From a virus: 32,446 bases of DNA. Below, piece after piece: positions 5,331 through 25,067 of this stretch (the stretch's first letter is position 1; every line of letters begins with the position of its first letter). The stretch lies in IMG/VR virus record IMGVR_UViG_3300037189_012531, positions 1 to 32,446 of that record; one strand, given 5' to 3'. The notes beneath the pieces were generated by a model. It had not been told where the DNA came from and ran no database searches. It saw nothing but the letters and a program-made list of their open reading frames with translations. A program made the translations under genes and the position numbers.

Positions 5331-5359
5331 AATATAGTGGATTTCTTTGTGTTTGTCAA
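5331..5359 (-). promoter_or_regulatory. Sigma-70-type promoter for the sliding clamp gene
   Basis: On the minus strand TTGACA (5359-5354), a spacer of exactly 17 bases and TATATT (5336-5331) form a near-consensus host promoter. It lies in the 79-base gap between polymerase stop and clamp start, which gives a leader of about 37 nt containing AAAGGAAAAA before the ATG. Confidence 0.85.
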
Positions 5360-5366
5360 CAGCAAT

Positions 5367-8072
5367 TTAACCAAATGAGAACAAATCGTCAAATGTGCTA
5401 TTAGTCATAGTATTACTTCGCAAGTCCCAATTAAGAACTCCTAGCAAGTTTTCAACCTTTTCATCTACTAGTGTGCGTTCCATTGCATTATCATCGAATG
5501 GTAGTTCAATGAACCATTGAGGCAGTCTTAGTTCATCTGTGGGATATGCGATACTAGTAAAGCCTAATGGATTATCCCTAAGTTTACATACAATGACCTT
5601 CATCCCATCAACGATCTTCATAGAATAGTTGTCTGAATTTACCCTACGCAGATAGTTATAGTTGATAGCTGCCATTGCATGACCCACACCACACTTACCT
5701 GTCTTTTCCCAAGTCTCAGTGTGTCTAGTTAGGTTGTTCACACTCTTAGGTGATCCCTTTGTCCAAGAATCTTGTGCGGCTAACACTCGCTTGAAATCCT
5801 TGATAGTTTCAATGACTTCTTCTCTGTTCTTACCTTCTTGCAATACCATCTTTAATACTTGCATCAAGAACTCTTGAACATACTTAGGAGTGTCTGCACG
5901 TTTCAAGTCAAGTCCCATAGCCTTGATATCACCTAAGTTACCATCTTTATCCTTTCGCTTGCCTTCTTTATCATAGATATTGATTGCATAACGTTTCTTT
6001 GTGATAAAAATGCTACGATCACCAATCAGTTCTCTACCTGCTTTAATAATCTCACCGTTCTTACGCGGTGCGTGAAATGCACGTTCCATGAACGCCGGGA
6101 AAGTAGCATTAGCCTGCTCTGCAATACCGTCATACAACCCTATGCACACGTCCTTATTCCATTCTAAATCGCTACTGTCTATTTGTGACTTAAGAATAGG
6201 ATATGCGCTAAAGTAACAACTGTCAGTATCGCCATATACGATTGCAGGACCTTCGTGATTATAGTCACCGGTGACAGTTTCATTGATCGTACTCATCATG
6301 TGTCGCACAATCTGTCGGCCCGACAATGTAACTGATTGACCAATACGCTTGTCATAGAAACGGCAGTGTTCATTAAGCAATGCACCATATGCACTATTAA
6401 GCAAAATCTTACGTACAAGCTGTCGCTTGTCATAGTAATCGTACATGTCAGTCCCGTATGCTTCTTTTGCTTGCTTTTGAATTGATTTACGTTCTGTATA
6501 CCAACGTGTGAGCAATCCTGGAATCACACCTTCTTGGTCGCTTCTAAATATAGTACCATTTGCACTTATGATATATGGATTATGATTATCGAAAATCAAT
6601 TTCCATACCTCAGCGGCAGACATTTCTTCGCTCCTGCCATCAGCATAATCAAGCGTAAGCATGGTGCCACGTTCTTGATTCATGATAGCAGTATATTCTA
6701 ATGCACCAAACAAACCTTCCCACAAGATGCTGCCAGTGACCTCGTCATCACCTTCCTTGTAACGCTTCTTTTCAGAGGCTAATCTTAGCCCCTTTTCTCT
6801 CATGTAGTTGTTTGTAATAGTTTGTCGGACTTGGGCAACGATTGTTTCCGGTGCCATGTTAAGAGCGCGGATCGCTGACGGGTAGAGACTGTTGATATCG
6901 ACTGCTCCCACCCATTCGTGGATGCCCCTTTTGGGCGTAGCAACATAGGCACCTGCCGCTTGTTGTTCATCATTGTGTGTATCCTTTCGTTTTTTATCTG
7001 GAACTACCAAACCTCTTTCATGAGCCTCATTCATGATTGCCATTTCAATCATTGCAACAGACCCCATGACCGTGGGCAACAGCACTGTATTTTCATGAGC
7101 CAGTGCGTTTGCCAAATCTAAAAACTTAAGCTTATTGTGAATCTTAACCAATAGCATTGTATCCTGACGATTGTATTCAATGAACTTTCTAAAGTCCTTG
7201 TTATACAACTGATCCAGAGTACCTTCGTATTGAGTCTTGTTCTCACCTACTTCCATCTCACCAATGAAGTCTAGTTTGTATGAGTGACGGGATTCATAGT
7301 TATACTTCTTGTATAATTGAAGGTAGTCCATATGAACACGCCCTACTAGATCGTAAGTAACTTCTTCTTTACCAAAGCGTTCATATGTACGCTGTTTAGG
7401 AAGCTGACCTAGCAGACAAAATTTACGTGTGTCATCCTTACTCATTACTCTAGTGACACGATTAACCATATATGGTATATCATATCCCTCAGAGTTCCAT
7501 CCTGTCAAAATATCCGCATCATCGATAAGTTGAAAAAATGTCTCAAACATCTCAGTTTCACTACGAAACAACATTGTATTTGGCATCTCTCTGACAAGAT
7601 CCCATGCTGTCTCATCGGTCATCCCCTTAGGTGGGATACAGAGAGTTATAAGTTGATCCATCCAATCCAAATACATACTAATCGCAGTCACTGGGTTGAA
7701 TGGATCACTAGTAGGGCTAAAGCCTTTATCCGGATCAAAGTCAACCTCAATATCAAAGAAGCATGTATGCAGCTTCGGTGGTTCAACCTTCAGATAGTTT
7801 TCTGAAAGGCAACGGAATACTACGTTGATATCACTCTCAAACAGTTTTTTGTTTGCATGGATTCGTCGTTCCTTTTCAAATTCAGCACGTTTTCTAGAGC
7901 TAAACTTGCTTACAGGATCACCATACAGGCTACGATACTTACCTTTACTATCACTATAGTATAGTGTATAGTTCGCAGGATATTCCTGATAGGTTCTCTT
8001 GCCTTCAGGATTCCTCTCTACTACAAAAATGCGATCGGTATCACGATCATGGATAGCATCAATATAACTCAT
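5367..8072 (-). CDS. 43: Family B DNA polymerase (T4 gp43-like)
   Basis: 901 residues, about the length of T4 gp43. The N-terminal 3'-5' exonuclease is intact: FFDIEVDFDP (ExoI, D107/E109), GWNSEGYDIPYM (ExoII) and YNRQDTMLL (ExoIII). The palm motifs are DINSLYPSAIR (motif A), KILLNSAYGAL (motif B) and YGDTDSCYFS (motif C, both Asp present); KKRYAINIYD is the later KKRY motif. It therefore looks like an active replicative, proofreading polymerase. It starts immediately after the stop of the glycosyltransferase-like gene with no clear ribosome site (TAGATG), implying translational coupling. It is presumably transcribed from the promoter upstream of the dsbA-like gene. Confidence 0.97.
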   Translation of the reverse strand: MSYIDAIHDRDTDRIFVVERNPEGKRTYQEYPANYTLYYSDSKGKYRSLYGDPVSKFSSRKRAEFEKERRIHANKKLFESDINVVFRCLSENYLKVEPPKLHTCFFDIEVDFDPDKGFSPTSDPFNPVTAISMYLDWMDQLITLCIPPKGMTDETAWDLVREMPNTMLFRSETEMFETFFQLIDDADILTGWNSEGYDIPYMVNRVTRVMSKDDTRKFCLLGQLPKQRTYERFGKEEVTYDLVGRVHMDYLQLYKKYNYESRHSYKLDFIGEMEVGENKTQYEGTLDQLYNKDFRKFIEYNRQDTMLLVKIHNKLKFLDLANALAHENTVLLPTVMGSVAMIEMAIMNEAHERGLVVPDKKRKDTHNDEQQAAGAYVATPKRGIHEWVGAVDINSLYPSAIRALNMAPETIVAQVRQTITNNYMREKGLRLASEKKRYKEGDDEVTGSILWEGLFGALEYTAIMNQERGTMLTLDYADGRSEEMSAAEVWKLIFDNHNPYIISANGTIFRSDQEGVIPGLLTRWYTERKSIQKQAKEAYGTDMYDYYDKRQLVRKILLNSAYGALLNEHCRFYDKRIGQSVTLSGRQIVRHMMSTINETVTGDYNHEGPAIVYGDTDSCYFSAYPILKSQIDSSDLEWNKDVCIGLYDGIAEQANATFPAFMERAFHAPRKNGEIIKAGRELIGDRSIFITKKRYAINIYDKEGKRKDKDGNLGDIKAMGLDLKRADTPKYVQEFLMQVLKMVLQEGKNREEVIETIKDFKRVLAAQDSWTKGSPKSVNNLTRHTETWEKTGKCGVGHAMAAINYNYLRRVNSDNYSMKIVDGMKVIVCKLRDNPLGFTSIAYPTDELRLPQWFIELPFDDNAMERTLVDEKVENLLGVLNWDLRSNTMTNSTFDDLFSFG

Positions 8073-10938: not shown

Positions 10939-12110
10939 GTTGTGTGGGTAGGAGCCCAAAAATTAGTAATAGTTGGCCAAACCATATGAACAAATTTTAC
11001 TAAGTCCAAATTAAAATCTGGGTTATCTGTTTGATCTATTCCTAGTATCGTGTGTAGTTTGTTAGCTTCATCATTTGCATTACGTACAAATAAATTGTAA
11101 TTATGTTCAACGTCATTATTAATAGCATCAATGTGGTTTCTTGATGTTTCTGCAAACGATTCAATATTTTTAATTGTAGCACTTAAGCGTTCTTGTTGAT
11201 CAACTATGTCATTGTATTCGGGTATCAACATGTATTCTTTAAATGTTCTATACCCTTTAGATTCCATCATTGACAGAAATCCTCTATGCCAGGATAAAAT
11301 GAACGGATGCATGTTGATTATAGCTCTATAACTCTTTTCAGTAAGTTTAGGCAAAAACCTAATCTCAGAATCTATGGATATTGCAAAATCAGATTCTGTT
11401 AATAAACTGAACAATGTTTTTTCGTACATGGTATGATCATAAGGATAACCTACGTATACAAAATCATCATTGCCAGCTACTGGTTTTAAATCTAGCGTAC
11501 TAGAAGTCTCTGTCATGAATTTTTGAAATTTGTCATCACTGTAATCAGAAAAAAATTCATTTTTGATGAAGTCTACGTGTTTTTTACTATAGTGACATGA
11601 CCACATCAATCTATTCAACGAATTGTTTTCCCATAGTCTACGCATAACCATAGCTCTATTGAACCTATTCATATTGCCGGGAGTGAATAGTCCTGATCTA
11701 GTTTGACTATTCCATTGAGTGTTTCTTTTTTGGTTGATGATTACACAACCGTGAACGTAAGTTACTAAGTTTAGATAGTGTACATAAATTATATCACTAG
11801 AGTCCATCCTATAATATTCTAAATGATCACCGTCGCAAATAAACTTATATCTATGTTGTACTTTACTTACTAGAATGGATCTTAATTCCCTAAACCTAGA
11901 TTCTATATCTTTAGTATATACTCTGCCTTCATTTACGTCCATAGCACAAATAAAGGGATCACTGCCGAATTTATTAGCAAATTCTATAATATAATCTATT
12001 GCTGTTGAAAATTGATCAAGATTAGCTAAGTACCCGTCATTCCTACCTACTTGAGTAGTTCCCCCTACTAGATAGGGATGTAGATTAATGTGCCGTATAA
12101 TATGTGACAT
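10935..12110 (-). CDS. Glycosyltransferase-like protein (distant GT10-like block), unknown substrate
   Basis: A 391-residue protein. Around residues 255-295, IRFLPKLTEKSYRAIINMHP, then FLSMMESKGYRTFKEY resemble the TEKxxxAIxxxHPFI...LxxxGYxTF block of phage GT10-related enzymes. The N-terminal half (FICAMDVNEG, YKFICDGDHLEYY) has an alpha/beta pattern and acidic residues but no clear DXD. The C-terminal third is helical. The start forms a TAATG overlap with the metalloprotease gene, so the two are cotranslated. Function as a glycosyltransferase is suggested only by one block; it may instead be a lectin-like or degenerate relative. Confidence 0.45.
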   Translation of the reverse strand: MSHIIRHINLHPYLVGGTTQVGRNDGYLANLDQFSTAIDYIIEFANKFGSDPFICAMDVNEGRVYTKDIESRFRELRSILVSKVQHRYKFICDGDHLEYYRMDSSDIIYVHYLNLVTYVHGCVIINQKRNTQWNSQTRSGLFTPGNMNRFNRAMVMRRLWENNSLNRLMWSCHYSKKHVDFIKNEFFSDYSDDKFQKFMTETSSTLDLKPVAGNDDFVYVGYPYDHTMYEKTLFSLLTESDFAISIDSEIRFLPKLTEKSYRAIINMHPFILSWHRGFLSMMESKGYRTFKEYMLIPEYNDIVDQQERLSATIKNIESFAETSRNHIDAINNDVEHNYNLFVRNANDEANKLHTILGIDQTDNPDFNLDLVKFVHMVWPTITNFWAPTHTT

Positions 12111-12688
12111 TATTGAAAAATGTGATGATTTTTTTCGCCGTAAATTTTAATATACTTACCTGCGAGTTCATCTGCCATTTTTTCTATGGGACTGCCAGGA
12201 TAACTAGAACCAGGTTTAATCAAACCAAGTTCACCTTGCCTTACATGGACCAATTCATGGAATACAGTTCTTAGTATATCAACTAGGTTTCTATTCTTAA
12301 CATATACCCAAACTTTATTAGAACCATCTTGATGACTCCCGGTGTGGTGCTCATCTTGTGCTTCTTTGGTGTCTTGACTTAGCTCTATGTCAGGTTGAGT
12401 TTTAAACTTAAGTATACCTTTAGCCCATTGTACAAACTTTTCTACTTCTTCTTCGACATTCACTTCTGACGAACCCTCTTCATCTAGTTTGTTTTTAATC
12501 CAACTATCTGGAGTGGTATGATAAAGCTTGATGAATTGATTATGCAACAAGTCGCCAGTAATTCTATGTTTTCTAGCTACCTTTTGCATCAATGTATCAA
12601 TCGTATCATAGTTGTGCTTTTCCAGGCTAGGTAAACGTTTGGCTAGCTCTTGTGCGGCAGTTTCTATGATAAAGTCTGTACTATTCAT
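12110..12688 (-). CDS. Capsid-tag-bearing zinc metalloprotease-like protein (HELVH)
   Basis: 192 residues. HELVH at 144-148 is an HExxH zinc-protease motif, and MADELAGKYIK (about 171-181) provides a downstream Glu as expected for the third ligand (E174). The protein starts MNSTDFIIE, with Glu at position 9 in the same pattern as four other proteins in this region, resembling T4 capsid-targeting sequences cut after Glu. The middle part (residues 70-120) is acidic and probably flexible. No signal peptide is seen. A GATAAATA late-type box sits 7 bases before the ATG, so it is probably expressed late. I infer a packaged, injected protease acting in the newly infected cell; the target is unknown. 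Confidence 0.65.
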   Translation of the reverse strand: MNSTDFIIETAAQELAKRLPSLEKHNYDTIDTLMQKVARKHRITGDLLHNQFIKLYHTTPDSWIKNKLDEEGSSEVNVEEEVEKFVQWAKGILKFKTQPDIELSQDTKEAQDEHHTGSHQDGSNKVWVYVKNRNLVDILRTVFHELVHVRQGELGLIKPGSSYPGSPIEKMADELAGKYIKIYGEKNHHIFQ

Positions 12689-12695
12689 GATTAAC

Positions 12696-12703
12696 TATTT
12701 ATC
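12696..12703 (-). promoter_or_regulatory. Late-type promoter box GATAAATA before the metalloprotease gene
   Basis: GATAAATA on the minus strand ends 7 bases before the ATG at 12688 and lies in an 18-base intergenic gap. If it acts like the T4 late TATAAATA box (-13 to -6), transcription would begin at about -2, giving an almost leaderless mRNA. Confidence 0.5.
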
Positions 12704-12706
12704 TCT

Positions 12707-13138
12707 TTAGTTACACCAGCTTTGCTTTGCTTCACCGAAGTAAGGTCTAGCATATCCATTTTTAATTAGCAAATCTCTTAGGCTTTTACCATCCAATACT
12801 ATATCGCCTAAAACACGACCACCGTACTTATCCCAATCCATGATAACTATTTGCCGTTTTGATGCTTGATTTATCACTTGTGATGTAAACTTAGTAGCAG
12901 CCTTTCCTCTCTCATCTTCTGATGCACAGTTAGCACGAAATCCCTTTTCAGGAGTATCAACTCCATATACTCTGATGCTTAGTTCTTTCTTTAATGGATC
13001 AGGTAAGAAATTAGCCTGGAACGCAACTGTGTCCCCGTCTATGATACGTGTGATTGGAAAGTCGTATACTACACCTTGTTTTTGTGCAAGTGCTGGTATT
13101 GAAATTAGTAATAATATCGTTGCTATAATTTTCTTCAT
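12707..13138 (-). CDS. Exported thermonuclease (staphylococcal nuclease family)
   Basis: 143 residues with a typical Sec signal peptide: MKKIIATILLLISIPALAQ, with probable cleavage after ALA. The mature chain follows the SNase fold: ITRIIDGDTVAF (Ca-binding Asp), IRVYGVDTPEKGF (catalytic Arg and Asp), ERGKAATKF (catalytic Glu region), YGGRVLGDI (second catalytic Arg) and SLRDLLIKNGYARPY. The nuclease would act in the periplasm or outside the cell. It follows the GNAT gene by 18 bases in an apparently late operon. Possible uses include breaking down competing or released DNA, or attacking superinfecting DNA in the periplasm; these are guesses. Confidence 0.9.
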   Translation of the reverse strand: MKKIIATILLLISIPALAQKQGVVYDFPITRIIDGDTVAFQANFLPDPLKKELSIRVYGVDTPEKGFRANCASEDERGKAATKFTSQVINQASKRQIVIMDWDKYGGRVLGDIVLDGKSLRDLLIKNGYARPYFGEAKQSWCN

Positions 13139-13156
13139 TTATTTCTCACTTCTTGT

Positions 13157-13882
13157 TTATCCTACCCATTGTGCATACAGGTATAAGAAATCTTCTTCTT
13201 CAGTATCATTGTCATGATATAAGTTTACACCAGGTGCGCCCAACTCGTTCCCGCCGTCCAACGATTCCACCGGAAATGTAAATGGCACCCAATCGTATCG
13301 ATCATACTTACTATAATTTACTAGTGGTTTGGCGCCTAATGATTGGAGTTTTTTTTGATTTGCTTTTGCTTCACGCTGAAAGTACGGGCCGGCACTTTCT
13401 AAATCAAAATTTTTACGTATTATCTTAATAACACCATTAACCCGTACGCCGGGCGTCTGATTAAGTTTTACCCATAGTTTTCGTGCTTGTGATGTTTGTG
13501 ACTCATCTGCAAAAATAACGTAACCAGCTTGTAATAATGTAGTATACATTAATATTCCTATACCCTGACCACGGTATCTAGAATCCAGTACAACATTACT
13601 AACTTGTATTGAATTAGCCAGCCCAGCAATTTTTATTTTTCTAAAACCCATCCATGAAATTAGAGCATAACCCTCTACATTAGCAGCGGATTTGTCATAA
13701 AAATAAACACGAAAATCGGTGCCACCACCCCAGTATCCTTTTTCAATGGCTGCTGATTTTTCTATAACATAAACAAAACGGTTATCGCCGGGTACAGGTT
13801 TCGCCCCTTTGAGCTTTTTATCTCGCTCATCAAATTCAATACCTGCTCCTGCGGGAGCACGTGTCAATTCTTGTATTTTCAT
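13157..13882 (-). CDS. GNAT-family N-acetyltransferase
   Basis: 241 residues. VVLDSRYRGQGIGILMYTTLL (about residues 97-117) is the GNAT motif A with the RGQGIG acetyl-CoA pyrophosphate loop. It is preceded by a beta strand and followed by AGYVIFADESQTSQARKLWVKL (motif B-type helix). The N-terminus MKIQELTRA is similar in length and spacing to the nine-residue tag of neighbouring proteins but lacks the Glu at position 9, so it may be untagged or degenerate. An ACTAAATA box is 5 bases before the ATG. It lies between the kinase/ParB cluster and a secreted nuclease. The substrate (protein, tRNA, small molecule) is unknown. Confidence 0.8.
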   Translation of the reverse strand: MKIQELTRAPAGAGIEFDERDKKLKGAKPVPGDNRFVYVIEKSAAIEKGYWGGGTDFRVYFYDKSAANVEGYALISWMGFRKIKIAGLANSIQVSNVVLDSRYRGQGIGILMYTTLLQAGYVIFADESQTSQARKLWVKLNQTPGVRVNGVIKIIRKNFDLESAGPYFQREAKANQKKLQSLGAKPLVNYSKYDRYDWVPFTFPVESLDGGNELGAPGVNLYHDNDTEEEDFLYLYAQWVG

Positions 13883-13887
13883 AATAG

Positions 13888-13895
13888 TATTTAGT
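13888..13895 (-). promoter_or_regulatory. Late-type box ACTAAATA before the GNAT gene
   Basis: ACTAAATA ends 5 bases before the ATG at 13882. It matches the CTAAATA variant of the T4-like late box. The short distance again predicts a leaderless transcript. Confidence 0.4.
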
Positions 13896-13983
13896 GCTCA
13901 CTTTTGATTTTCTGGTAGCGAATCAGTCGATCAAGCCAGCAGCCGGCTACACCTCGTAACTAAAGTTACGGTCCTAAGGATGT
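13896..13983. other. Structured intergenic segment with 23S-rRNA-helix-69/I-CeuI-like words
   Basis: This 88-base gap is one of the few noncoding stretches in the region and is GC-richer than its surroundings. It contains a perfect hairpin, CGTAAC-TAAA-GTTACG (13955-13970), and the palindrome AGCCGGCT (13941-13948). It also contains ACGGTCCTAAGG (13968-13979) and GGTAGCGAA (13914-13922), which on the plus strand match the two adjacent parts of the conserved 23S rRNA helix-69/I-CeuI region, but in swapped order. On the minus strand it is the 3' UTR of the kinase gene, so it may be a terminator, a processed small RNA or a homing-endonuclease relic. No ribozyme core that I know could be matched. 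Confidence 0.4.
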
Positions 13984-15117
13984 TCATTCGGTTTGCATAT
14001 TAAACCATGGATCAGTGATAACAATCGTATCACCGCGCATCATGGCATTTTCTGTATGCAAGTCCCAACCTATTTTATTAATTCTTCCTTTATGATATAG
14101 TAATGTCATTAGTTTGAATAATACTTCATATTCAAGTAAATCTCTTTCGTCTAATGAATCAAGTGTTTGCAGTATTAATGTGGGATCCATCCCCTCATCA
14201 TAATGCATCCAAGTTTTTTCATCACCTATTATCTGCTGTGCTTGTTGCCAACTCATTGGTTTTGTTGCAAGATCACTGAGTATCCAAACCATAGCCTCTT
14301 GAAAACTACCTACTGGAATAGGTCGCAATCTTTCCATAGTAACCATGACGTATTCTTTACCGTCTACTTCAAATACTTCTACTTCTTGTCCAGAGAAACG
14401 AGGTAAATTTTCCAAATTACGATTTTCTTTGCAGAATTCATAAAATTTCATAAAGGTGTCTCCGGCTAGTCCGGCACCTTGCCCATCGTCTGGCATAATA
14501 ATCTTAGTCACCGGTCCTGATTTCTTAGCCCAAACAGTAGCATCTGCGCCACTACCTAATAACTTATATCCTGCTCTGCGTAGACTTGTTCTTATTTCTT
14601 TACTAGCAGGTGTGTAACTTTCTGCTTCGTCTACTATACCTTCTTCTAGTGCAGATTCGGGTGCAAATAAAGGACCTTCTATAAAATTACCACGTTGACT
14701 GTATAACCCTTGGCTTAACGCTTTAATTATATTATTGGTTAAGTCTCTTCGGCGCATTCCTCCGCGAGGCAATAAATTCACTTGTACAGGATCATCACCT
14801 TTCATCTTAATCCAAACACTCATTCGGTTTCTACCCTCATGGCCAACAATTTTTGCAGCTTCTTCAAATACTCCGTCTTCCCACTCAGGTGGAATTTTTA
14901 TTTCTAAGAACGGATAAGCAATCTTACCTCCCGAACCCATATGTTTTTCTATTTCAGGATTGGTTTCAGAAGATCCTAAAGGTAGTGCTAATTTTAAAAA
15001 TGTGCTAGGCTTCATTTGGACTCTTAAGCCAAAATAATCTATGTCAGTTCCGTTGGGTGTTTGTCCCCAACCACTTGGATCTAGAACTGCTTCAGTGATA
15101 AATTCGTTTGCTCTCAT
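13984..15117 (-). CDS. Capsid-tag-bearing ParB/Srx-like + kinase-like fusion protein
   Basis: 377 residues. It starts MRANEFITE-A, the clearest of the tag sequences (compare T4 internal proteins, FIAE cut before A). Residues about 20-145 form a domain with VGHEGRNRMSVWIKMKGDDP, reminiscent of the E/D-G-R-H-R-x-x-A block of ParB/sulfiredoxin folds. Residues 180-377 are kinase-like: GYKLLGSGADATVW (glycine loop), VTKII (Lys 205), a catalytic WDLHTEN (D352, N357) and ITDPWF (Asp 369 in the DFG position). This is the APH/small-molecule or protein kinase pattern. A short acidic linker with LEEGIVDEAES (about 157-166) could be a second LxE-type cleavage site separating the two domains. It directly follows the ParB-like gene. 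Confidence 0.6.
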   Translation of the reverse strand: MRANEFITEAVLDPSGWGQTPNGTDIDYFGLRVQMKPSTFLKLALPLGSSETNPEIEKHMGSGGKIAYPFLEIKIPPEWEDGVFEEAAKIVGHEGRNRMSVWIKMKGDDPVQVNLLPRGGMRRRDLTNNIIKALSQGLYSQRGNFIEGPLFAPESALEEGIVDEAESYTPASKEIRTSLRRAGYKLLGSGADATVWAKKSGPVTKIIMPDDGQGAGLAGDTFMKFYEFCKENRNLENLPRFSGQEVEVFEVDGKEYVMVTMERLRPIPVGSFQEAMVWILSDLATKPMSWQQAQQIIGDEKTWMHYDEGMDPTLILQTLDSLDERDLLEYEVLFKLMTLLYHKGRINKIGWDLHTENAMMRGDTIVITDPWFNMQTE

Positions 15118-15119
15118 AA

Positions 15120-16331
15120 TTACATCACAAATATTTTACCAACACTATCACCTAACACATCGTTGAATAATAGTTCCATTGTATATGCTAGACTATCTGC
15201 TGCTTGTTTTCTTTCACCCTCATCACGATATTCAGGTTTGATGTTCATATACTTAGTAGGATTGCCGAATACTTTTCTACCATATGTTAAGTTAGTTGGT
15301 AATGGATTTAATGTTACTTTACCTGTACCTAAATATTGAGCAAACAACTCATACAAGAATTCATATGGACGGCGAATCTGACCACTTGTGCTGCTGCGCT
15401 GTGTACCCATAGCATTGAACAGTGCGTTGTATTCTGGTGTCATATCCCATTTAATTTCTGTTCTGTATGTGTTTGCACCACGATAGGCTTTTCCGTAATG
15501 TTCTTCCAATAATGCATTTACAGTTTGAAAGAAATACTTTTCTGCTTCGCCCCATGCAGTCCAGTTCTTATTTCTAGCACCTGCATTTATAGCATGACCA
15601 AAACGATGTGCCATCATCCAGGGTGTTAGCATTACTTTTCTATCACCCTTGTTCCCTACATATACGACAGTGATAGCATCTTCGCTACCATTGATAATTT
15701 CATCAGCATCTTGACCAAACACTTGTCTAATTTGATCTGGACTCATAGGTCCATGTTCACTATACTTACCGGTACCTGAGATATTGCTAAAGAATAATCT
15801 AAAGTCGAAGGGAGTTTGTTCAAAGAATCGTGTAGCCTTTTCTATATTCTTAGGATGTGGTACTAATTTCTTATCTGCTCCTGTGAATGGTCCTGGCTTA
15901 CTAAAGTCACCCATAGTCTTATAGGTTTGTAATGCCATTTCATCTAATTCATCTAAGTCTGCTAGATCAACATAATTGATGGGTACACCCTTCATCGCTG
16001 CTGCTAACGCACGATGATTGCCATCGATGATTCTATCGCCTGAAAGTAGAATTACTTTCTCACTAAGACTAGGATCATTCATGTAACGATGTAATATCTC
16101 TTGTTGATCTTCATCCATCATGTCTAGTATTTCATCTAGATGTTCAACACGATATTGACTCTGTAACATGATTGCCAATTTATATTTTGGCATTATTTTT
16201 ACTTCTAATTCATTGTCAAATTCATCAGGTCTTACCTCGTCCCAGAACGATTCATCACGTTCAGGAAAGTTACCGTCATACAACTTGTTTAATGTTGTTT
16301 TATTTTCGCTTAAAAATTCACAGGCTCTCAT
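15120..16331 (-). CDS. Capsid-tag-bearing ParB-like protein with C-terminal unknown domain
   Basis: I choose the ATG at 16331 (403 residues), not the longer frame from 16346. It forms an ATGA overlap with the upstream kinase-like gene, has GGGGAAGAG upstream, and gives the N-terminus MRACEFLSE that matches the tag family. LLSGDRIIDGNHRALAAAMKG (residues 95-115) is the ParB/Srx nucleotide-binding motif, followed by the strand VPINYVDLADL. The C-terminal two thirds contain MMAHRFGHAINA then WGEAEKYF, which recall a zinc-peptidase helix with HRxGH in place of HExxH, so that part may be a degenerate metalloprotease. Activity could be a CTP/ATP-dependent enzyme as in ParB, Srx or SerK; not provable here. 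Confidence 0.6.
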   Translation of the reverse strand: MRACEFLSENKTTLNKLYDGNFPERDESFWDEVRPDEFDNELEVKIMPKYKLAIMLQSQYRVEHLDEILDMMDEDQQEILHRYMNDPSLSEKVILLSGDRIIDGNHRALAAAMKGVPINYVDLADLDELDEMALQTYKTMGDFSKPGPFTGADKKLVPHPKNIEKATRFFEQTPFDFRLFFSNISGTGKYSEHGPMSPDQIRQVFGQDADEIINGSEDAITVVYVGNKGDRKVMLTPWMMAHRFGHAINAGARNKNWTAWGEAEKYFFQTVNALLEEHYGKAYRGANTYRTEIKWDMTPEYNALFNAMGTQRSSTSGQIRRPYEFLYELFAQYLGTGKVTLNPLPTNLTYGRKVFGNPTKYMNIKPEYRDEGERKQAADSLAYTMELLFNDVLGDSVGKIFVM

Positions 16332-17017
16332 GTACTCTTCCCCCAACCCATGAAGAAAGGATCACTGATAACAGGAGTACCATCACTACCCAGCATAAAG
16401 TTACCTTGATGTAGGTCTAATTTGTAACCATTTTTCTTTGCTACCTTTTTCAACATGACAACTGTATTCCACAACTTTTTTAGTCCTTTTTCACCTACAT
16501 GCATTATGACCTGTTGCATGGTTTCTTGCCTGGTGATACGGCGAACTTGCTGCCATACTGGTAGTTTATGGGAAACAGGAGTAGTAGCAGTAGACCAAAA
16601 TTTATCGAACGTGCTATTTCTTTCTATATCATCTGCCATGTCAGCCAATACCTCATTCCAATTTTTTACACTTCGACTATTAAACTCAAATAATCTTTCC
16701 ATACGTATCTGTAAGTAGGGTTTACCTCCATACATAAATGGTTCATAATCCAGGATCTCGGGTAAAAACTCATTTCCCGGGTCTGCTTTAGAAAGATCAT
16801 AAAATGTCTTGAAACTTTTTTGTGCGTTAGTAAGTTCGCCGGCTCCACCGCTATTACCACGACTTGTACCGAATATTTTTAGTATTAGACCAGATCCAGG
16901 TTCTAGGAATACAACCTGATCGGCACCTTTACCTAATTTTTTATAGCCTTTGCGTAGTAGATGAGAAATTACTCCCTGTCCAACATAGGCTTCGGATATA
17001 AAGTCAGTGGATTTCAT
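16328..17017 (-). CDS. Capsid-tag-bearing kinase-like protein
   Basis: 229 residues beginning MKSTDFISE-A, with Glu 9. The rest is a compact kinase-like fold: GYKKLGKGADQVVFLE (glycine loop 24-39), LILKIFG (Lys 47), YLQIRMERL (hinge region), LDLHQGNFML (catalytic Asp 201 and Asn 206) and VISDPFF (Asp 219 in the DFG position). It shares both ends of the fold with the larger kinase-like protein at 13984-15117 and is probably its paralogue without the N-terminal domain. It overlaps Dps by TAATG on one side and the ParB-like gene by ATGA on the other. As in T4, injected enzymes often modify host targets at once, so host protein or nucleotide phosphorylation is a reasonable guess. Confidence 0.65.
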   Translation of the reverse strand: MKSTDFISEAYVGQGVISHLLRKGYKKLGKGADQVVFLEPGSGLILKIFGTSRGNSGGAGELTNAQKSFKTFYDLSKADPGNEFLPEILDYEPFMYGGKPYLQIRMERLFEFNSRSVKNWNEVLADMADDIERNSTFDKFWSTATTPVSHKLPVWQQVRRITRQETMQQVIMHVGEKGLKKLWNTVVMLKKVAKKNGYKLDLHQGNFMLGSDGTPVISDPFFMGWGKST

Positions 17018-17457
17018 TACTCGCGTTCTACTTTTAATATTGAACGAATAAACCAGGCTTTCTTACCATATAAGTCTTGTAGCTCAGCCATATAGTTAGC
17101 AATGCCTTGTTGTCTTTCTGCTGTTGCTTCATCAAACATAGCGATAACTAGTTCAGACATTTTTTCGCAATCTTGCAATGATTCAGCAAACATTAATTGA
17201 GCGCGTGGAATTTTTACTTGATCTTCTATTATAGTTAATTGCCCATAACGTTGCAAACTACCTGGAGTATAATGACCTAAGATTCTGATATACTCTGCGA
17301 TAGGATCAATCGTCCCACTCACATCACTGTATAATGTATCATAGAATGCATGGTATTGCGGGAAGTTACTACCTTCAACATTCCAGTGAAAGTTTTGACT
17401 TTTGATAGCAAATGACTGAGTACTTGCTAATAGTATTTTTAAGTTATCTGCTAACAT
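17017..17457 (-). CDS. dps: Dps-family ferritin-like protein
   Basis: 146 residues with the Dps pattern. NFHWNVEGSNFPQYHAFYDTLY (22-43) contains the family's HW and H-x3-D ferroxidase residues (H24, H36, D40). TIDPIAEYIRILGHYTPGSL (49-68) contains D51 and E55 of the D-x3-E pair, followed by the typical LG-x-x-x-x-GSL turn. Dps forms twelve-subunit shells that bind and mineralise iron with peroxide and protect or compact DNA. It lies inside the operon of tag-bearing proteins and has AAGGAAAG as its ribosome site. It does not itself carry the nine-residue tag. It might guard packaged or freshly injected DNA from oxidants, or sequester iron in the host. Confidence 0.85.
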   Translation of the reverse strand: MLADNLKILLASTQSFAIKSQNFHWNVEGSNFPQYHAFYDTLYSDVSGTIDPIAEYIRILGHYTPGSLQRYGQLTIIEDQVKIPRAQLMFAESLQDCEKMSELVIAMFDEATAERQQGIANYMAELQDLYGKKAWFIRSILKVERE

Positions 17458-18463
17458 TTTTCTTTCCTTCGAATGCTATCTTCATCGTTCGTTCTTGTCC
17501 CTTACGTTTGAAAGGACCGTATTCTTGTTCGTATGTACCGGGAGAGGGCATACCTAAATTCTCATCCACTAAACCCTTCATGATAGCACTTTCTTTTTTT
17601 TGTTTAATGTCGTTATCAAACTGTTTTTTTGTTGCTTTGACAATGCCACTAAATCTCTTATTACCACGTGCAAAATCTCCAGCTTTATCAGCCGCGCTAG
17701 CATCTGCGCTTGCTGCTTTTTTATACTGCTGTAATTTTTCAGTACTCAATTCATTAAGTTGATCGTCGTGTGCGTAGTTCTCTAGTTGTTTTATAATCTG
17801 ACGTAACATGATGTTTATATCACTAGAACCTAATTCTTCTGCACCTGCATGAAAACCGGCTACATCCATAACTGCGTCACCGACAACCTCATGCCCATAA
17901 CGTGTTACTATATCAGGATAACGCATTTCTAATCTATTGTAAAGAACATCAGCTAGATTTTCTTGACTGATACCTTCACTCATTAGTTCAGTTTCAAACT
18001 GTATGCCTTTGCTGACAGGTTCTTGATCTTTCCATGGCTTCCAATAACCATGCTTATGATTGTCTACATAGTAAACTATAGTGAGATAAGGCTCACCTTC
18101 TTCACTAGGTGGCTTCTTTACTGTATCAACAATTTTCTTAGCACCCCAGTGCAGGTCATTGAATTTGTAAATCTCGTTATCACCTTGGCTAGCCGTCTTT
18201 GATTTTACAACAAACGCACTATTATATCGTTCTCCGTTGGGTGCAACGCCTTCTTTGTTTATCCATTGAACGTCAACTTCTTTTTTATATTTTGCTTGTG
18301 CAGCATCTTGCCTACGATAATGATCATCCATTGGATCATTGGGTTCTTGCATGTCAGGTTCTTGACGCATAGGTTTACGTCTCGCACCAAACATAGCTTC
18401 CCATTCATCGGGATCTTCTGGATAATGGGCTTCGTTAATAATACCTTTTAGAATATTACTCAT
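17444..18463 (-). CDS. Tag-bearing hypothetical protein with basic helical module
   Basis: 339 residues starting MSNILKGIINE-A, so the putative cleavage Glu is at position 11 rather than 9. Residues 25-55 are charged and Pro/Met-rich, probably disordered. The centre (INKEGVAPNGERYNSAFVVK onwards) is alpha/beta. A module near residues 235-285, ELSTEKLQQYKKAASADASA then GDFARGNKRFSGIVKATKKQ, is a lysine/alanine-rich helical repeat of a kind frequent in aquatic phage proteins. Such modules look DNA-binding. The end is basic (KRKGQERTMKIAFEGKK). AGAAGG near the end of the upstream gene serves as ribosome site. No catalytic motif is recognised; a packaged DNA-associated protein is a fair guess. 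Confidence 0.5.
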   Translation of the reverse strand: MSNILKGIINEAHYPEDPDEWEAMFGARRKPMRQEPDMQEPNDPMDDHYRRQDAAQAKYKKEVDVQWINKEGVAPNGERYNSAFVVKSKTASQGDNEIYKFNDLHWGAKKIVDTVKKPPSEEGEPYLTIVYYVDNHKHGYWKPWKDQEPVSKGIQFETELMSEGISQENLADVLYNRLEMRYPDIVTRYGHEVVGDAVMDVAGFHAGAEELGSSDINIMLRQIIKQLENYAHDDQLNELSTEKLQQYKKAASADASAADKAGDFARGNKRFSGIVKATKKQFDNDIKQKKESAIMKGLVDENLGMPSPGTYEQEYGPFKRKGQERTMKIAFEGKKNVSR

Positions 18464-18464
18464 A

Positions 18465-19595
18465 TTAAGCCTTCTTGTTTTTATTGTCTAAATAGCCGCG
18501 CTTGTTAGCAGTAGCCCAGGCAATGTTCTCTGCTTCTTTCTTGGGGTGACCTAATCCACGCTCACTCTTAGCAATATGTTTGACCATGCGATCTACTTTA
18601 GCGCCTTCAGACAAACCAAGATCATCTCCAAAACTATGATAGTAATCATATATGTCTTTGTAGCCATTCTTTTTAGCAGCACGATCTAGAATATCACCAA
18701 TTTTGTGATCAGCAATGCCCTGCTTTCTGAACCATGGAAGTAACCAATCGATCGGGTCACCGTCGGGATATATCTGACCTACAACATCCTCAACTTTACG
18801 CCATACATCACTTAACATTAATTTAGGTGCTGCTGATTTTGTAGCTGCTAATTTAGGAGGCTTATTAGCTTCACGCTCTGCCTTAGCTGCGGTGCGATTA
18901 TCGTATGCTTTCTTCTTAGCCCAATTACGAGGATCATTTGCATTAAATGGATACCCACCTACCATGCCTTCTCCTACACCGCCTCCTGCGATAACACCAC
19001 CTGACATTTCTTGCATACTCTTGCCTTCTAAATATTCGGCAAGCGTGTTCATGTAGTCTGCTGCTTTAATAATTTTTTCTTGTACCCAACCTTCAAGCCC
19101 TTCATCTTCTGATCTGTCTTTGATCAGCATCATAACAGTTTTTGTATTTTTAAAAAGCTGCAATAAATCACTTTTAGCCATTTCAACTTCATGATCTACT
19201 CGGCTTTGACCATGTTGAACAAACCCTGTTTTGCGTTTCACACCTTGCCCGGGTACAAGAATTAAATCTTCTTCGTCTAACTGTGCTTCTTGTACGGGTT
19301 GCTTGGGCTTCTGCTGCATAGACTTACGCATTTCTTCTTTTGATTTGCCATACTTCTTTTTGAAGTCAGCATCATTCAATCCGTCTCTACCGCCTCTCAA
19401 GTCCATAGAAAGGTCTTTCATTTTGCTTTCGCTTAAGCTATTAGCATAAGGTGCTTTTTTCTTTTTAGTTGCACTGCCCACTGGCTGTAGTCCACGAACA
19501 GTAGGTCTCTTTTGTGTTTCACCCATGGGCTTAGCCACTGATGCCACTGAACCGGCTACAGTAGCCATTTCAGATACAAGTTGATTAATTTTCAT
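18465..19595 (-). CDS. Tag-bearing internal-head-protein-like protein with several LxE-type sites
   Basis: 376 residues beginning MKINQLVSE-M, with Glu 9. Much of the first 250 residues is low-complexity and basic, with further possible prohead-protease-like sites such as SLSE-S, PVQE-A and QLDE-E. In T4, internal proteins and scaffold are cut at several L/I-x-E positions. The C-terminal part has two compact modules: a helical one near WLLPWFRKQGIADHKIGDIL, and a terminal one, RMVKHIAKSERGLGHPKKEA then AENIAWATANKRGYLDNKNK, seen in many aquatic phage proteins. The gene follows a GATAAATA box with a 17-nt leader containing GGAAAT. I read it as the first gene of the cargo operon and a possible core or internal head protein. 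Confidence 0.5.
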   Translation of the reverse strand: MKINQLVSEMATVAGSVASVAKPMGETQKRPTVRGLQPVGSATKKKKAPYANSLSESKMKDLSMDLRGGRDGLNDADFKKKYGKSKEEMRKSMQQKPKQPVQEAQLDEEDLILVPGQGVKRKTGFVQHGQSRVDHEVEMAKSDLLQLFKNTKTVMMLIKDRSEDEGLEGWVQEKIIKAADYMNTLAEYLEGKSMQEMSGGVIAGGGVGEGMVGGYPFNANDPRNWAKKKAYDNRTAAKAEREANKPPKLAATKSAAPKLMLSDVWRKVEDVVGQIYPDGDPIDWLLPWFRKQGIADHKIGDILDRAAKKNGYKDIYDYYHSFGDDLGLSEGAKVDRMVKHIAKSERGLGHPKKEAENIAWATANKRGYLDNKNKKA

Positions 19596-20373: not shown

Positions 20374-21981
20374 TTAACTCCTCAATAAAGGTGGAACACC
20401 GGACCTCTTGACATTAAAACCAAACGCTTTAGTATTCTTTTTTATTGCGTCTGGTTTAACATCTACTGTAAGAGCAGTCTTGAATCGCGGATCATTCTTT
20501 TCTTTTTCGCTCGGGATATATCCGGAGCTTTCACTTATGGGTATGGCCAAATCTCTAGATAATACACGTATTCTGTCAGGTGGTATCGGTGTTGTTATTG
20601 CAATTTCAAAATCAGCCCCATCCGTAACATTGCCATCTAATCCTTCAGTATCAATCTCTAATAATGCAAGAGGTTCATCTTCTTCAAATTCATCACCTAG
20701 CCAATTCATTACTGCATCTTCCATACTGGTTTTATCAGGGAAGCAATAAATTGCAGACTTTTCATCTACCATCTTACTGGATCGGTTCCCCTTTTGAGGT
20801 ATCAATCCTTTAGATAAGATACTATCTAAATTTTCACTAGGAGTAACATGATATATCTTTTTAGGCAACTCATCCTGATCCTCATTAACATTGTATGTAG
20901 GATCAACTTTTTGACGTTTCATCCCTTTTGGTTGATTAGGATCAACAGGGTCTATGTCAGTAGTAGTAAGTCCCAACTTCTTCAATGCGTCAATGTACTT
21001 GTGTTCCTCTTCTTCACGACCAAATGCCATAATGGTGCTCGGTGGTCCTTTACCGAATATCTTAGGGTCTGCTTTGTCTAGATTACTGATATACTGACCT
21101 AGTTTATACCAATCATACACATCACTAACATCTACTCTCACTGTACCTTTAGGCATAGTAGGCTTAAACTCTGGCCCGGGTGGAGGACCATTTGGATAAT
21201 AATCTTCAAACTCTTTTGATAGCTTTTCCTTCAGATTATCTTTCTGTAGCTTAACAGGATTTTTATACATTGTCTCTATAGTCAATGATTCGCTATGTAG
21301 CTTATCTCTAAGGGCATACAGTTTGGTAATATACCCTTGACTACGTAATGCTTTATATGCTAGATTTTCAGGACCAAACTCTCCAAATTTATCCAAGCCT
21401 GCTTGTCTGTACTGTCTAATTTTCTTTATGATATCATTTATTTTTTCTAAATTTTTAAACTTTAGTGCATGTTGAACTAGGGTTAATAACTTTTCATATT
21501 TTACTTTAGTAGCAGTATTATCAAAATTAGCTCTACGTTTGGTAGGTAATCTAAGCCACTTGTCTTGTAATATACTGTATTCTCCTAGACTTACTGCAGG
21601 TTCATTTATATCCTGCACATATAGTTCTACTGGCACATCATGAACTTTGATATCGTGACTATCATTATAGATAGTCTTTTTAGCATTGAAAAGTTCTTTA
21701 TATACTTCATCGTCAGACAAGTCTTTCATGTCGATAAGTATGTGTAAATCTAAATCGCTATGAGGAGTATAACTATATGCTGCATTGCTACCAGATATAG
21801 TAAGGTCTTTCACATCAAGACCACTCACACCTAATTCTTCTAAGAAATCTTCAGCAATTATTTTTAACTGCTTTTTAACTTCAGGGCGAAGGTGATTCCC
21901 GTGCCAAATTTTTGGATTCAGCGCATTGTGAAACTTAACAGCATCGCTTAAGCGAAAAGATTCTAAAGTTTTTATGTCCAT
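20374..21981 (-). CDS. Pol-beta-type nucleotidyltransferase fused to ADP-ribosyltransferase-like domain
   Basis: 535 residues in three parts. Residues 60-125 carry an NTase signature, GSNAAYSYTPHSDLDLHILI (D76 and D78) with a third acidic residue in VELYVQD (E119), so catalysis is plausible. Residues about 280-347 hold a module VRVDVSDVYDWYKLGQYISN ending in LGLTTTDIDPVDP. Residues 375-475 contain KIYHVTPSENLDSILSKGLI, then SAIYCFPD and DGADFEIAITTPIPPDRI, which follows the H-x-T...NL-x-x-IL-x-x-G-L pattern of DarT/KptA-like ADP-ribosyltransferase folds. The protein lacks the N-terminal tag of its neighbours. A GATAAATA box is 4 bases before the ATG. A nucleotide-transferring effector or toxin is likely; the target is unknown. 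Confidence 0.6.
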   Translation of the reverse strand: MDIKTLESFRLSDAVKFHNALNPKIWHGNHLRPEVKKQLKIIAEDFLEELGVSGLDVKDLTISGSNAAYSYTPHSDLDLHILIDMKDLSDDEVYKELFNAKKTIYNDSHDIKVHDVPVELYVQDINEPAVSLGEYSILQDKWLRLPTKRRANFDNTATKVKYEKLLTLVQHALKFKNLEKINDIIKKIRQYRQAGLDKFGEFGPENLAYKALRSQGYITKLYALRDKLHSESLTIETMYKNPVKLQKDNLKEKLSKEFEDYYPNGPPPGPEFKPTMPKGTVRVDVSDVYDWYKLGQYISNLDKADPKIFGKGPPSTIMAFGREEEEHKYIDALKKLGLTTTDIDPVDPNQPKGMKRQKVDPTYNVNEDQDELPKKIYHVTPSENLDSILSKGLIPQKGNRSSKMVDEKSAIYCFPDKTSMEDAVMNWLGDEFEEDEPLALLEIDTEGLDGNVTDGADFEIAITTPIPPDRIRVLSRDLAIPISESSGYIPSEKEKNDPRFKTALTVDVKPDAIKKNTKAFGFNVKRSGVPPLLRS

Positions 21982-22079: not shown

Positions 22080-22403
22080 ATGACTGATTTTATAGCAATA
22101 CTTTCAACCAAAGTGGCATCAATGATGGGGGGATTTTTTGGAGGTGCAGCAATACTTACCTTCATAAAACCAAAGACTATCAGTGAAGCATTTCTACGCG
22201 GATCACTATCTACTGGCAGTGCCATGGTATTTGCTCATCCATTAGCAATGATGGCTAAGCTAGACGACAATTGGGAATCTCAACTAATGTCAGGATTTTG
22301 TGTAGGTTTCTTAGCCTACAGTATACTTGGTATGGTTGCAAATTTCTTAAAGAAAAACCAAGATAAAGACATAGTAGAAACAATCAAAGAAATAAAGAAG
22401 TAA
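22080..22403 (+). CDS. Small membrane protein, holin-like
   Basis: 107 residues with hydrophobic segments MMGGFFGGAAILTFI (about 14-28), LSTGSAMVFAHPLAMMA (43-60) and SGFCVGFLAYSILGMVANFL (72-91), followed by a charged Lys-rich C-terminus. Two to three membrane spans with small Gly/Ala-rich faces and a basic tail fit a holin or accessory holin. AGGAG precedes the ATG. It is one of only three plus-strand genes in the window and forms a unit with the next gene, separated by 9 bases. No endolysin is next to it, so the assignment to lysis is tentative. Confidence 0.5.
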   Translation: MTDFIAILSTKVASMMGGFFGGAAILTFIKPKTISEAFLRGSLSTGSAMVFAHPLAMMAKLDDNWESQLMSGFCVGFLAYSILGMVANFLKKNQDKDIVETIKEIKK

Positions 22404-22412
22404 GAGGTAGTA

Positions 22413-22766
22413 ATGATTATAACTAACATAGTTCATTTTTTAAATCAATGGCAAATGCCTATAAATTTTTTAGCGCATTTGATGATATTTGTAGGTGCAT
22501 GTTATGTTGCACTTCATAATAGAAGTTTACCGCAATGGCACGTTACTCCATTATGGTATGTGGGATTAACTAGCGTGTTTACCGCAATGACTATTGTGTG
22601 TCAATGGGTATTTGGTCCTGAATTTGAATTAAGTTACTTTAAAGTGGGATTACTAGGAGAAACTGCATTGAATATATCAATCGCCGCTATAGCTCTGATC
22701 ATGCTTATTGTAACGGTACGCAAAGACATTATAGGAGCCAAGAAAAGAAGAATGGCACAAGAATAA
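22413..22766 (+). CDS. Small membrane protein, three spans
   Basis: 117 residues. Hydrophobic stretches are FLAHLMIFVGACYVALH (about 19-35), LWYVGLTSVFTAMTIVCQWV (47-66) and ALNISIAAIALIMLIVTV (84-101). The C-terminus KDIIGAKKRRMAQE is strongly positive, so it is predicted to face the cytoplasm. It is encoded directly after the other small membrane protein and ends in a terminator hairpin. Pairs like this are common in phage lysis or superinfection-exclusion modules. I recognise no specific family. Confidence 0.5.
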   Translation: MIITNIVHFLNQWQMPINFLAHLMIFVGACYVALHNRSLPQWHVTPLWYVGLTSVFTAMTIVCQWVFGPEFELSYFKVGLLGETALNISIAAIALIMLIVTVRKDIIGAKKRRMAQE

Positions 22767-23698: not shown

Positions 23699-24424
23699 TT
23701 AATTTTCTTCTAGGTAATCTGTATTTTCGGCTACCGTTTGAGTAGAGTGATATAGATAGTTTCCTCCTACGTCTTCAGACATTTCTTTTTTACTAATAGC
23801 AATTGCTGCTTGTTGTGCAGGACTACTTGCTTCATTGACTTCACCACCCATACCTATGTCTAGCATTTGTGCTACATTTTGTGCAAGCTTGAGATTTTGC
23901 TGTGTCACAGGATATAGACTCATGACCATTGCAGTCTTTTGTCTATCGTTTAGATTGGGCCATGCATTACGTATTTCAGTTGCACTTCTAATACCAGGAC
24001 CAAACTCCACTGTGGGTAGATATGCGATATATGCGTGTTTGCTGAATGGTTGTAAATTTTTACCTGTCCAGGGTTGGAAATAAGCAGGACTACCGTCTTT
24101 CTTAGTGCCACCTGGTTTAGGTTGTTCTGTTTTATCTTTCTCGCTGCGTACAAATATCAATACATCTTCATTGGGATTATACTGACTTGTAATTTCTTCA
24201 GCCTTGAACGGACTCTTTACTTGAACAAAACGACCAGGAGCAACACCTGCCAATTTAGCTAGTTTTTCTTTTATACTAAAGGGGAAAGGTCTTGCTTTCT
24301 GATCGTTAGTTGCAGCAACATAAACATCGGCATCCGGGAAGGCTTCTACTGCACTCTTGTATAGAGCATAGTGACCCGCATGAAACGGATGAAAGCCTCC
24401 CGGCATGACGACGATTTGTTTCAT
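23699..24424 (-). CDS. Cytidylyltransferase / NadM-like nucleotidyltransferase
   Basis: 241 residues. GGFHPFHAGHYALYKSAVEA (9-28) with HAGH at 15-18 is the HIGH-family nucleotide-binding motif of adenylyl/cytidylyltransferases. A later IRSATEIRNAWPNL carries the family's (I)SxTxxR phosphate-binding block. Such enzymes join a nucleotide to nicotinate mononucleotide, pantetheine phosphate or a sugar/alcohol phosphate. The last 50 residues (from GGEVNEASSPAQQA) are polar and may be a flexible tail; the piece EVNEASS resembles the LxE-type cleavage motif. The gene follows the histone-like gene by TAAATG. A role in NAD or sugar-nucleotide supply during infection is likely, but which one cannot be told. 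Confidence 0.75.
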   Translation of the reverse strand: MKQIVVMPGGFHPFHAGHYALYKSAVEAFPDADVYVAATNDQKARPFPFSIKEKLAKLAGVAPGRFVQVKSPFKAEEITSQYNPNEDVLIFVRSEKDKTEQPKPGGTKKDGSPAYFQPWTGKNLQPFSKHAYIAYLPTVEFGPGIRSATEIRNAWPNLNDRQKTAMVMSLYPVTQQNLKLAQNVAQMLDIGMGGEVNEASSPAQQAAIAISKKEMSEDVGGNYLYHSTQTVAENTDYLEEN

Positions 24425-24625
24425 TTACTTACCTGCTTCTTTTGCTTCTTTTCTAGCATTCTTTTCTGCGGTGACTTCATTACGAATTACTTTACATACT
24501 TTTGCTAGCTCACCTAGTGCTTTGCGGGCACGTGTACCTGCTGCTGAGTTACCTTTAATAAATTTGTCATGCTCTTTCACTGCTGCATCAAACTGCTCTT
24601 TTAATTGATCTACTGAATTACTCAT
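24425..24625 (-). CDS. Histone-H1/Hc1-like small basic protein
   Basis: I prefer the ATG at 24625 (66 residues). It follows AAAGGAAAAT at the right distance and overlaps the stop of the RyR gene by 8 bases, while the longer frame from 24655 has no ribosome site. The protein is helical and basic. DKFIKGNSAAGTRARKALGE then LAKVCKVIRNEVTAEKNARKEA follows the KGNxAAGTRARKALxELxKxxKxxRxE pattern of the histone-H1-like Hc1 proteins found in marine T4-like phages. DNA binding or compaction is the inferred role. It sits between a RyR protein and a nucleotidyltransferase. Confidence 0.75.
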   Translation of the reverse strand: MSNSVDQLKEQFDAAVKEHDKFIKGNSAAGTRARKALGELAKVCKVIRNEVTAEKNARKEAKEAGK

Positions 24626-25067
24626 TATTTTCCTTTTGTTGAGTTGGTTGTTCACCTGTTATTGCCTGAAGCAATGCTCTTGCTACCACTCTGTCTTTTT
24701 CTTTTTCCTCTTCAGGAAGTTGAGCATAAGACTGTTGTGCCAACTTATAACGCTTTGCTTTCTTTTCATCCGGTGTAGGAGAATCTAAATCAAGCTGACC
24801 GTTGTAATCCGCCATTGCTGTTATGTTCCAGCCATCGTGAATTGCATCAGAAATCTTCTCAATATCTTTCTCTCCTGCACTTATTAATTTAGCTGCGGCC
24901 TTAGCTGACTCTAAATTTGCCAACCATCCAAAGTTTTTTCCTGGAGTACTACGACCATAATGATATGCATCATCTAATGCTTTATCGCTTACTTGCGCCA
25001 ACGCATTAATATCCATAGAACTTTCATTTACTATGTTCAATAATTTACGTACTGACTCAACTAACAT
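24618..25067 (-). CDS. RyR-domain protein with tag-like N-terminus
   Basis: 149 residues. Residues 68-136 match the RyR repeat pattern: EKISDAIHDGWN, a hydrophobic-acidic ADYNGQLDLD region, then RYKLAQQSYAQLPEEEKEKDR and VARALLQAI (compare H-x-x-W... P-x-x-x-L-x-x-x-EKxxDR). RyR repeats occur in the eukaryotic ryanodine receptor and in scattered bacterial and phage proteins, where ligand-binding (nucleotide-derived) roles have been proposed. The N-terminus MLVESVRKLLNIVNE-S ends in an L/I-x-x-E piece at position 15, a looser version of the capsid-tag motif. AAGAGGAAA is the ribosome site. The final residues are Gln/Glu-rich. Confidence 0.65.
   Translation of the reverse strand: MLVESVRKLLNIVNESSMDINALAQVSDKALDDAYHYGRSTPGKNFGWLANLESAKAAAKLISAGEKDIEKISDAIHDGWNITAMADYNGQLDLDSPTPDEKKAKRYKLAQQSYAQLPEEEKEKDRVVARALLQAITGEQPTQQKENNE

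Follow-up and report, generated by a model that had tools for sequence, protein, structure and literature searches.

Nine-residue protein starts in a virus contig and its relatives resemble the T4 capsid-targeting propeptide

Five proteins encoded on the minus strand of IMG/VR virus record IMGVR_UViG_3300037189_012531, a virus contig fragment of 32,446 bases that we call the window throughout, begin with variants of a single nine-residue peptide ending in glutamate. Judged by sequence comparison, these starts very probably represent a lineage-specific dialect of the phage T4 capsid-targeting propeptide, a label that would load enzymes into the phage head for injection. The initial annotation had remarked on the likeness to T4, and our comparisons bear it out: [ILV]-x-E is retained at the end of the tag, residue 10 is preferentially small, the tag is independent of the domain behind it, all seven large tag-bearing relatives encode both a gp21-type protease and a gp23-type capsid protein with L-x-E, and the same two cargo domains carry T4-style tags in cyanophages. 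Among cultured phages, the DNA polymerases closest to the window's belong to Phosso and Atu_ph07, two jumbo phages, and are 46-48% identical to it.

All five nine-residue starts lie where that annotation had placed them, as do its two looser versions (17444-18463 and 24618-25067). The tagged genes and their neighbors are as follows, a slash marking the predicted cut:

12110-12688, minus strand: predicted zincin-like metallopeptidase of 192 residues, tag MNSTDFIIE/T at 12662-12688
13157-13882, minus strand: GNAT-like gene in the block, tag-like head MKIQELTRA without Glu
13984-15117, minus strand: kinase-like gene of 377 residues, tag MRANEFITE/A at 15091-15117
15120-16331, minus strand: two-domain ParB-like gene of 403 residues, tag MRACEFLSE/N at 16305-16331
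16328-17017, minus strand: kinase-like gene of 229 residues, tag MKSTDFISE/A at 16991-17017
17017-17457, minus strand: untagged Dps/ferritin-like gene in the block (Pfam Ferritin, E 5.1e-15)
17444-18463, minus strand: probable tagged cargo of 339 residues, longer dialect MSNILKGIINE/A at 18431-18463
18465-19595, minus strand: 376-residue protein of unknown fold, tag MKINQLVSE/M at 19569-19595
24618-25067, minus strand: possible, weak cut site MLVESVRKLLNIVNE/SS at 25023-25067, before an RyR-like domain

An in-frame stop lies 3-16 codons upstream of each of the five tagged starts. The tags were originally ascribed to five unrelated proteins; they do sit on five proteins, but the genes at 13984 and 16328 both encode a kinase domain of one family and form a single cluster, which leaves four cargo families in the window rather than five. 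The idea that the cargo is coded as one block also needs qualifying, for the block is mixed, containing Dps/ferritin-like, nuclease-like, and Glu-less GNAT-like genes as well.

We counted tags with the pattern M-[KRNQS]-x2-[EDQN]-[FLIVM]-[ILVM]-x-E. This pattern was composed after the window had been seen, and relatives of the window are therefore the real test. It fits 5 of the 61 start positions in the window, against 7 of 8974 internal methionines (P about 2e-9). When window and relatives are pooled, 60 of 1931 nonredundant gene starts are tagged, against the same 7 of 8974 internal methionines (Fisher P 8.5e-38), and the lineage form of the tag reads M-[RK]-[AIS]-x-[EDQ]-[FI]-[ILV]-x-E, with a small residue next in line. 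Tagged genes are plentiful on individual contigs: there are 11 in the part read of the 88-kb contig G005, about 10 in G023 (524,565 bases), and, at the locus of G019 that corresponds to the window block, a row of five genes with four full tags and one looser version (MRAHIFLYE).

The signs of a cleavage site extend beyond the residues used to find the tags. Glu9 is present by selection, but residue 10 played no role in it, and this residue is Ala, Gly, Ser, or Thr in 37 of the 60 tagged genes (62%) versus 484 of 1871 others (26%), with a P of 1.5e-8 that is optimistic because members of one family are not independent. No such excess of small residues was found at residues 11-13 of the same 60 and 1871 genes. 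Residue 7 is Ile in 35 tags, Leu in 15, Val in 9, and Met in 1. All seven tag-bearing contigs longer than 150 kb encode an S77-family (gp21) protease and a gp23 capsid protein; the count covers large contigs that bear tags, since a scan with random 16-mers, aimed at the base rate of gp21, yielded no contig above 150 kb. One of the seven is G023, which is syntenic with the window, has a DNA polymerase 80% identical to the window's, and encodes gp21 at 353668-354312. The proteases of the large relatives themselves start with short sites of this kind (MALYLKE, MALYLRE, MARYLQE, and MKQIQYLRE). The gp23 proteins of the clade bear LLAE/SS, LKE/NA, or LAE/SA directly before their conserved core, where we infer the exact cleavage bond; T4 has SFLTE/A on that side. 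A portal profile run on the first set of relatives found matches in reference phages only.

The T4 system itself provides the closest comparison. T4 gp21 cleaves after L/I-X-E, and ten N-terminal residues of IPIII are enough to have a protein packaged; targeting depends mostly on residues 4 and 7, and processing on residues 8 and 10 (review, PMC9026906). Run through our motif scan as a control, T4 yielded IPII and IPIII (MKTYQEFIAE), gp21 (MNEPQLLIE), gp22 (MLKEQLIAE), and gp24 (MAKINELLRE). Like the capsid-targeting propeptides of IPI, IPII, IPIII, and gp21, the lineage tag forms the very first residues of proteins that are otherwise unrelated, presents a hydrophobic pair followed by x-E, obeys the L/I-x-E rule, and precedes a small residue (Ala, Ala, Ala, and Ser after the cut in T4 IPII, IPIII, gp22, and gp24), and the gp21 protease is encoded in the window's large relatives. 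It lines up with the T4 tag once one residue near position 4 is removed, and the equivalent of the Phe at T4 residue 7 is found at lineage-tag residue 6 in 41 of 60 cases, but residue 4, an aromatic in T4 IPIII, has no aromatic counterpart. The two systems differ in their passengers, which are enzyme-like proteins of 190-600 residues in the lineage and small basic inhibitors in T4, and in the number of tagged genes per genome or contig, which is far greater in the lineage.

Cyanophages S-SM2 and S-SRM01 share the tag logic and two cargo domains with the lineage but use a ten-residue, T4-like dialect. They encode gp21, and starts such as MKTLKQFLKE, MKSFFQFLSE, and MKNFHQFITE conform to MK[TSN]-x3-F[LI]xE. 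Two domains of their cargo recur in the tag-bearing contigs behind starts typical of the lineage, namely a SNPKGFSQKAHC domain (behind MRAGEFITE and MRANEFVTE) and a cytidylyltransferase-like domain (behind MKIKELVE). If the tag is a separable address label, the same cargo is expected behind different tags, which is what the cyanophages present. A conserved gene of approximately 200 residues adjoining the probable small-terminase gene (G001 47301, G007 115169, G019 85033, and G025 260443) starts with a T4-like ten-residue tag, such as MISLKTYIAE or MKTFAQYLTE, and both dialects thus coexist in the same genomes.

The cargo proteins carry features of enzymes. In the 192-residue protein, H144, E145, and H148 (HELVH, 144-148) and Glu169 are invariant in 11 sequences; its structure model, of moderate confidence (predicted local distance difference test [pLDDT] score of 70), has helices at 135-153 and 167-186, and a fold search gave a weak match to minigluzincins (best E 0.012). 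The HExxH motif with a Glu on the next helix identifies the 12110-12688 product, as predicted from its sequence, as a zincin-like metallopeptidase. One homologue (L012, 12318-13013) has the tag MRATEFLIE, an inserted basic and glycine-rich stretch, and a second site-like MYE/SA at the old tag position. Both kinase-like proteins match PHROG 15752, the T7-type protein kinases (E 5.8e-9 for 13984 and 1.5e-5 for 16328), and reach only E 0.034 against Pfam Kinase-PolyVal; K47, D201, N206, and D219 are invariant across 10 members, with motifs D-x-H-x-x-N and D-P. The 377-residue kinase-like protein consists of an N-terminal domain and a kinase-like domain (residues ~165-377). The 403-residue protein, whose structure model was unusable (pLDDT 40), combines an N-terminal ParB-like region (RIIDGNHRALAA, recognized by eye) with a conserved C-terminal domain of unknown fold. 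Searches among cultured phages found no homologue of the 377- or the 403-residue protein, nor of two additional tag-like proteins that relatives encode, and two other cargo proteins have short partial matches in cyanophages as their only cultured-phage homologues. In PADLOC, the tagged proteins match no defence system.

We propose that the tag would bind the prohead core during head assembly and carry its protein in, that the phage's own gp21-type protease would cut after Glu9 as it would cut the major capsid protein after L-x-E, and that the freed proteins, among them two kinases, the zincin-like peptidase, and the two-domain protein with a ParB-like region, would remain beside the DNA inside the head, to be injected and act on the host. 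Several points weigh against this proposal. Core binding, cleavage after Glu9, virion location, and injection are steps that we infer from T4. The tag families are phylogenetically nonindependent, and the count of seven gp21 genes covers large contigs that bear tags. The lineage tag has nine residues rather than ten and an R/K-A/I/S head, and it has no aromatic at residue 4, which matters for targeting in T4. A search of the window with the S77 protease profile found no protease gene in this 32-kb fragment. The nearest cultured phages, Atu_ph07 and Phosso, use the nine-residue dialect at just 2 of 1318 and 1 of 977 start positions. A late-promoter-like box lies upstream of 15 of 60 tagged genes versus 268 of 1871 others, a weak enrichment (P 0.04). 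The chief doubt is that some of the tagged proteins may be components of the head and not injected effectors.

That doubt is the core of the best-surviving alternative, which we consider unlikely: that the tag acts solely in head assembly, as a docking signal or propeptide, and is borne by structural or core proteins that, like T4 gp67 and gp22, are processed and are not injected effectors. The gp21 gene, and gp67-like genes beside the portal gene, begin with peptides resembling the tag (MALYLKE, MKLFEMFDE, and MRYNEFSKE), and T4 gp22, gp24, and gp21 bear such sites too. The cargo of the lineage, however, retains intact catalytic motifs (K/D/N/D in the kinases; HExxH plus Glu in the peptidase), and its content varies between related contigs, unlike that of core components.

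A signal for a destination other than the head, be it a host or phage compartment, a degron, or a tail component, is distinctly improbable. Short N-terminal tags of other function are possible in principle, and no tool result directly supports one here. Such a signal would predict neither the match between L/I-x-E in the tags and the gp21 and gp23 of the same genomes, nor the small residue after Glu9, nor the T4-style tags that cyanophages put on cargo domains shared with the lineage.

The tag is distributed over proteins in the manner of a peptide module. Its codons differ among the five window tags, so the signal is a peptide; we accordingly rejected a repeat at the DNA level. The initial annotation had proposed aligning relatives to see whether the tag alone is common, and it is: single-linkage clustering by similarity behind the tag sorts the 60 tagged proteins into 23 families with no detectable similarity to one another there. 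Domains move and the tag does not travel with them, as far as the sequences reveal. The middle of the 376-residue protein (residues 181-319) is N-terminal in G005 and has its own tag there (MKSCEFITE/A). G005 and G019 encode the two halves of the 403-residue protein separately, both halves being tagged, and among relatives they occur alone or in other fusions, usually with their own N-terminal tag. Metallopeptidase tags drift widely (MNSTDFIIE, MKANDFVNE, MKLQTIINE, MNIDRLVSE, MRIGEVLSE, MRANQFITE, MKPLNYISE, MKLNDLSE, and MKSIELYE), although [ILV]-x-E is retained in 11 of 11 homologue starts. This site is mostly retained in the other tagged families too, among homologues not selected for it, and homologues of the gene at 17444 start with MSRILKGLTE/A, MSKILKGLLNE/A, MSNILRGLKE/G, and MSNILRGLTE/S. 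Starts with a cut site are mostly absent from homologues of untagged window genes (0 of 15 for DNA polymerase, 0 of 10 for Dps, and sporadic in a few others). We give hardly any credence to shared ancestry, whereby the tagged proteins would be paralogues keeping a common N-terminus: the two kinases are indeed related, but common ancestry is contradicted for the set as a whole by the 23 families, the differing tag codons, and the domains that are internal in one phage and separately tagged in another, and we reject it.

A DNA-level scan of the viral collection for MRAxEFIxE matched at least 120 stretches, with an in-frame stop no more than 30 codons upstream in 80 of 95 among the matches listed. 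The permuted control peptide MExIFExAR matched 11 stretches in the whole collection, 4 of them with a stop within 30 codons upstream, and just 2 of those 4 open a frame of at least 60 codons. Chance or miscalled starts have a negligible probability and are rejected. Single matches do arise (the ClpP-like starts MSLVPMVIE in G023 are such chance matches, which we set aside as spurious hits of the looser motif), but neither the enrichment at gene starts, nor the permuted-peptide control, nor the presence of one TTG, at MRACEFLSE, as the sole alternative upstream start (the other four window tags have none) fits this explanation.

The domains found behind the tags recall polyvalent proteins, a class that accompanies the DNA of phages and plasmids into the recipient cell (Iyer et al. 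2017, PMC5512222). Common to both are zincins, T7-like kinases, GNATs, ParB-like domains, and nucleotidyltransferases, but most of the window's domains stand alone as individually tagged proteins. The tagged window proteins have 192-403 residues and one or two domains, with no long multieffector polypeptide; long fusions occur only in some relatives, such as the 1087-residue protein of G025 (67037-70300), in which nucleotidyltransferase, zincin, and kinase regions are joined. The window kinases are detectably similar in sequence to the T7 gp0.7-type kinase (PHROG 15752) and differ from it in bearing a packaging tag; the T7 kinase is made after infection. In the giant phage SPN3US, a large set of head proteins is reported to enter the host and several of them to be matured by the prohead protease (PMC7411985, PMC10052503); SPN3US belongs to another phage lineage.

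The principle of such loading is already known from T-even phages, where a shared leader pointed to the genes for internal proteins and where T4 Ip1-Ip3 are anti-restriction proteins (PMC12373910); the dialect and the enzymatic cargo are new. Searches of the open-access literature turned up neither this dialect nor any kinase or peptidase described as tagged cargo. The injected proteins of large phages are mostly unknown because such proteins share no common domain. We suggest, tentatively, that an uncultured jumbo-phage lineage uses one interchangeable nine-residue label to load separate effector enzymes, with polyvalent-like domains as individually tagged parts and L-x-E at the domain joints of longer proteins releasing single domains. 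If so, the label alone would list a phage's injected effectors from sequence. Should the same logic hold with lineage dialects, the injected enzymes of uncultured jumbo phages could be listed in this way and tested singly. The tags could also be used to load chosen proteins into phage heads for delivery.

Other genes of the window and its relatives touch on these subjects to varying degrees. Distant homologues of the GNAT-like gene at 13157-13882 bear full tags in relatives (MRANEFINE, MRAIEFLQE, and MNIKEIITE). In T4, an altered cut residue is still compatible with packaging (PMC9026906), and the GNAT-like protein may therefore be uncut cargo. Inside the cargo block, 12707-13138 encodes a nuclease-like protein that by eye resembles SNase and whose start, MKKIIATILLLISIPALA, reads like a signal peptide; it has homologues in nine relatives, and the six starts compared are likewise hydrophobic. 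The RyR-like domain of 24618-25067 is internal in G023, where REVKE/GAS precedes it at the matching place, a weak correspondence. One further gene has a probable site:

30113-30658, minus strand: homologue of a virion protein, probable short cut-site start MKQNIYE/GL at 30638-30658

Homologues of this gene start with MNKKQVINE/GL, MSKVIINE/GL, or MKQYLRE/GL, the short site being kept in several relatives. In Atu_ph07, the homologues of 30113 and 30661 are gp305 and gp306, annotated as virion structural proteins, and both fall within coding sequences (CDS) 284-329, one of the three virion-protein clusters found by mass spectrometry of that phage (PMC6102473).

Several nucleotidyltransferase-led proteins end in a conserved DYL[DE]E[KN], while the domains preceding it differ (window 23699-24424; G023 4404-5573 and 186027-187502; G005 69239-70663; G001 69852). 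This ending is possibly a C-terminal packaging or cleavage tag, comparable to the C-terminal processing of T4 Alt; a scan for it found the motif confined mostly to one protein family. An 805-residue protein of G015 (65507-67924) fuses nucleotidyltransferase, SpoT-type HD hydrolase-like, and ART-like regions, all identified by eye, with [LIV]-x-E and then a small residue at the domain joints. Two small plus-strand genes with hydrophobic segments, 22080-22403 and 22413-22766, have a homologue in none of the relatives compared. Finally, 20374-21981 encodes an untagged protein of 535 residues whose N-terminal region belongs to PHROG 36119 (nucleotidyltransferase-like) and whose C-terminal part weakly matches KptA/DarT-like proteins, and its N-terminus, M[DN][IL][KN]-x-L-[ED], is conserved in relatives.

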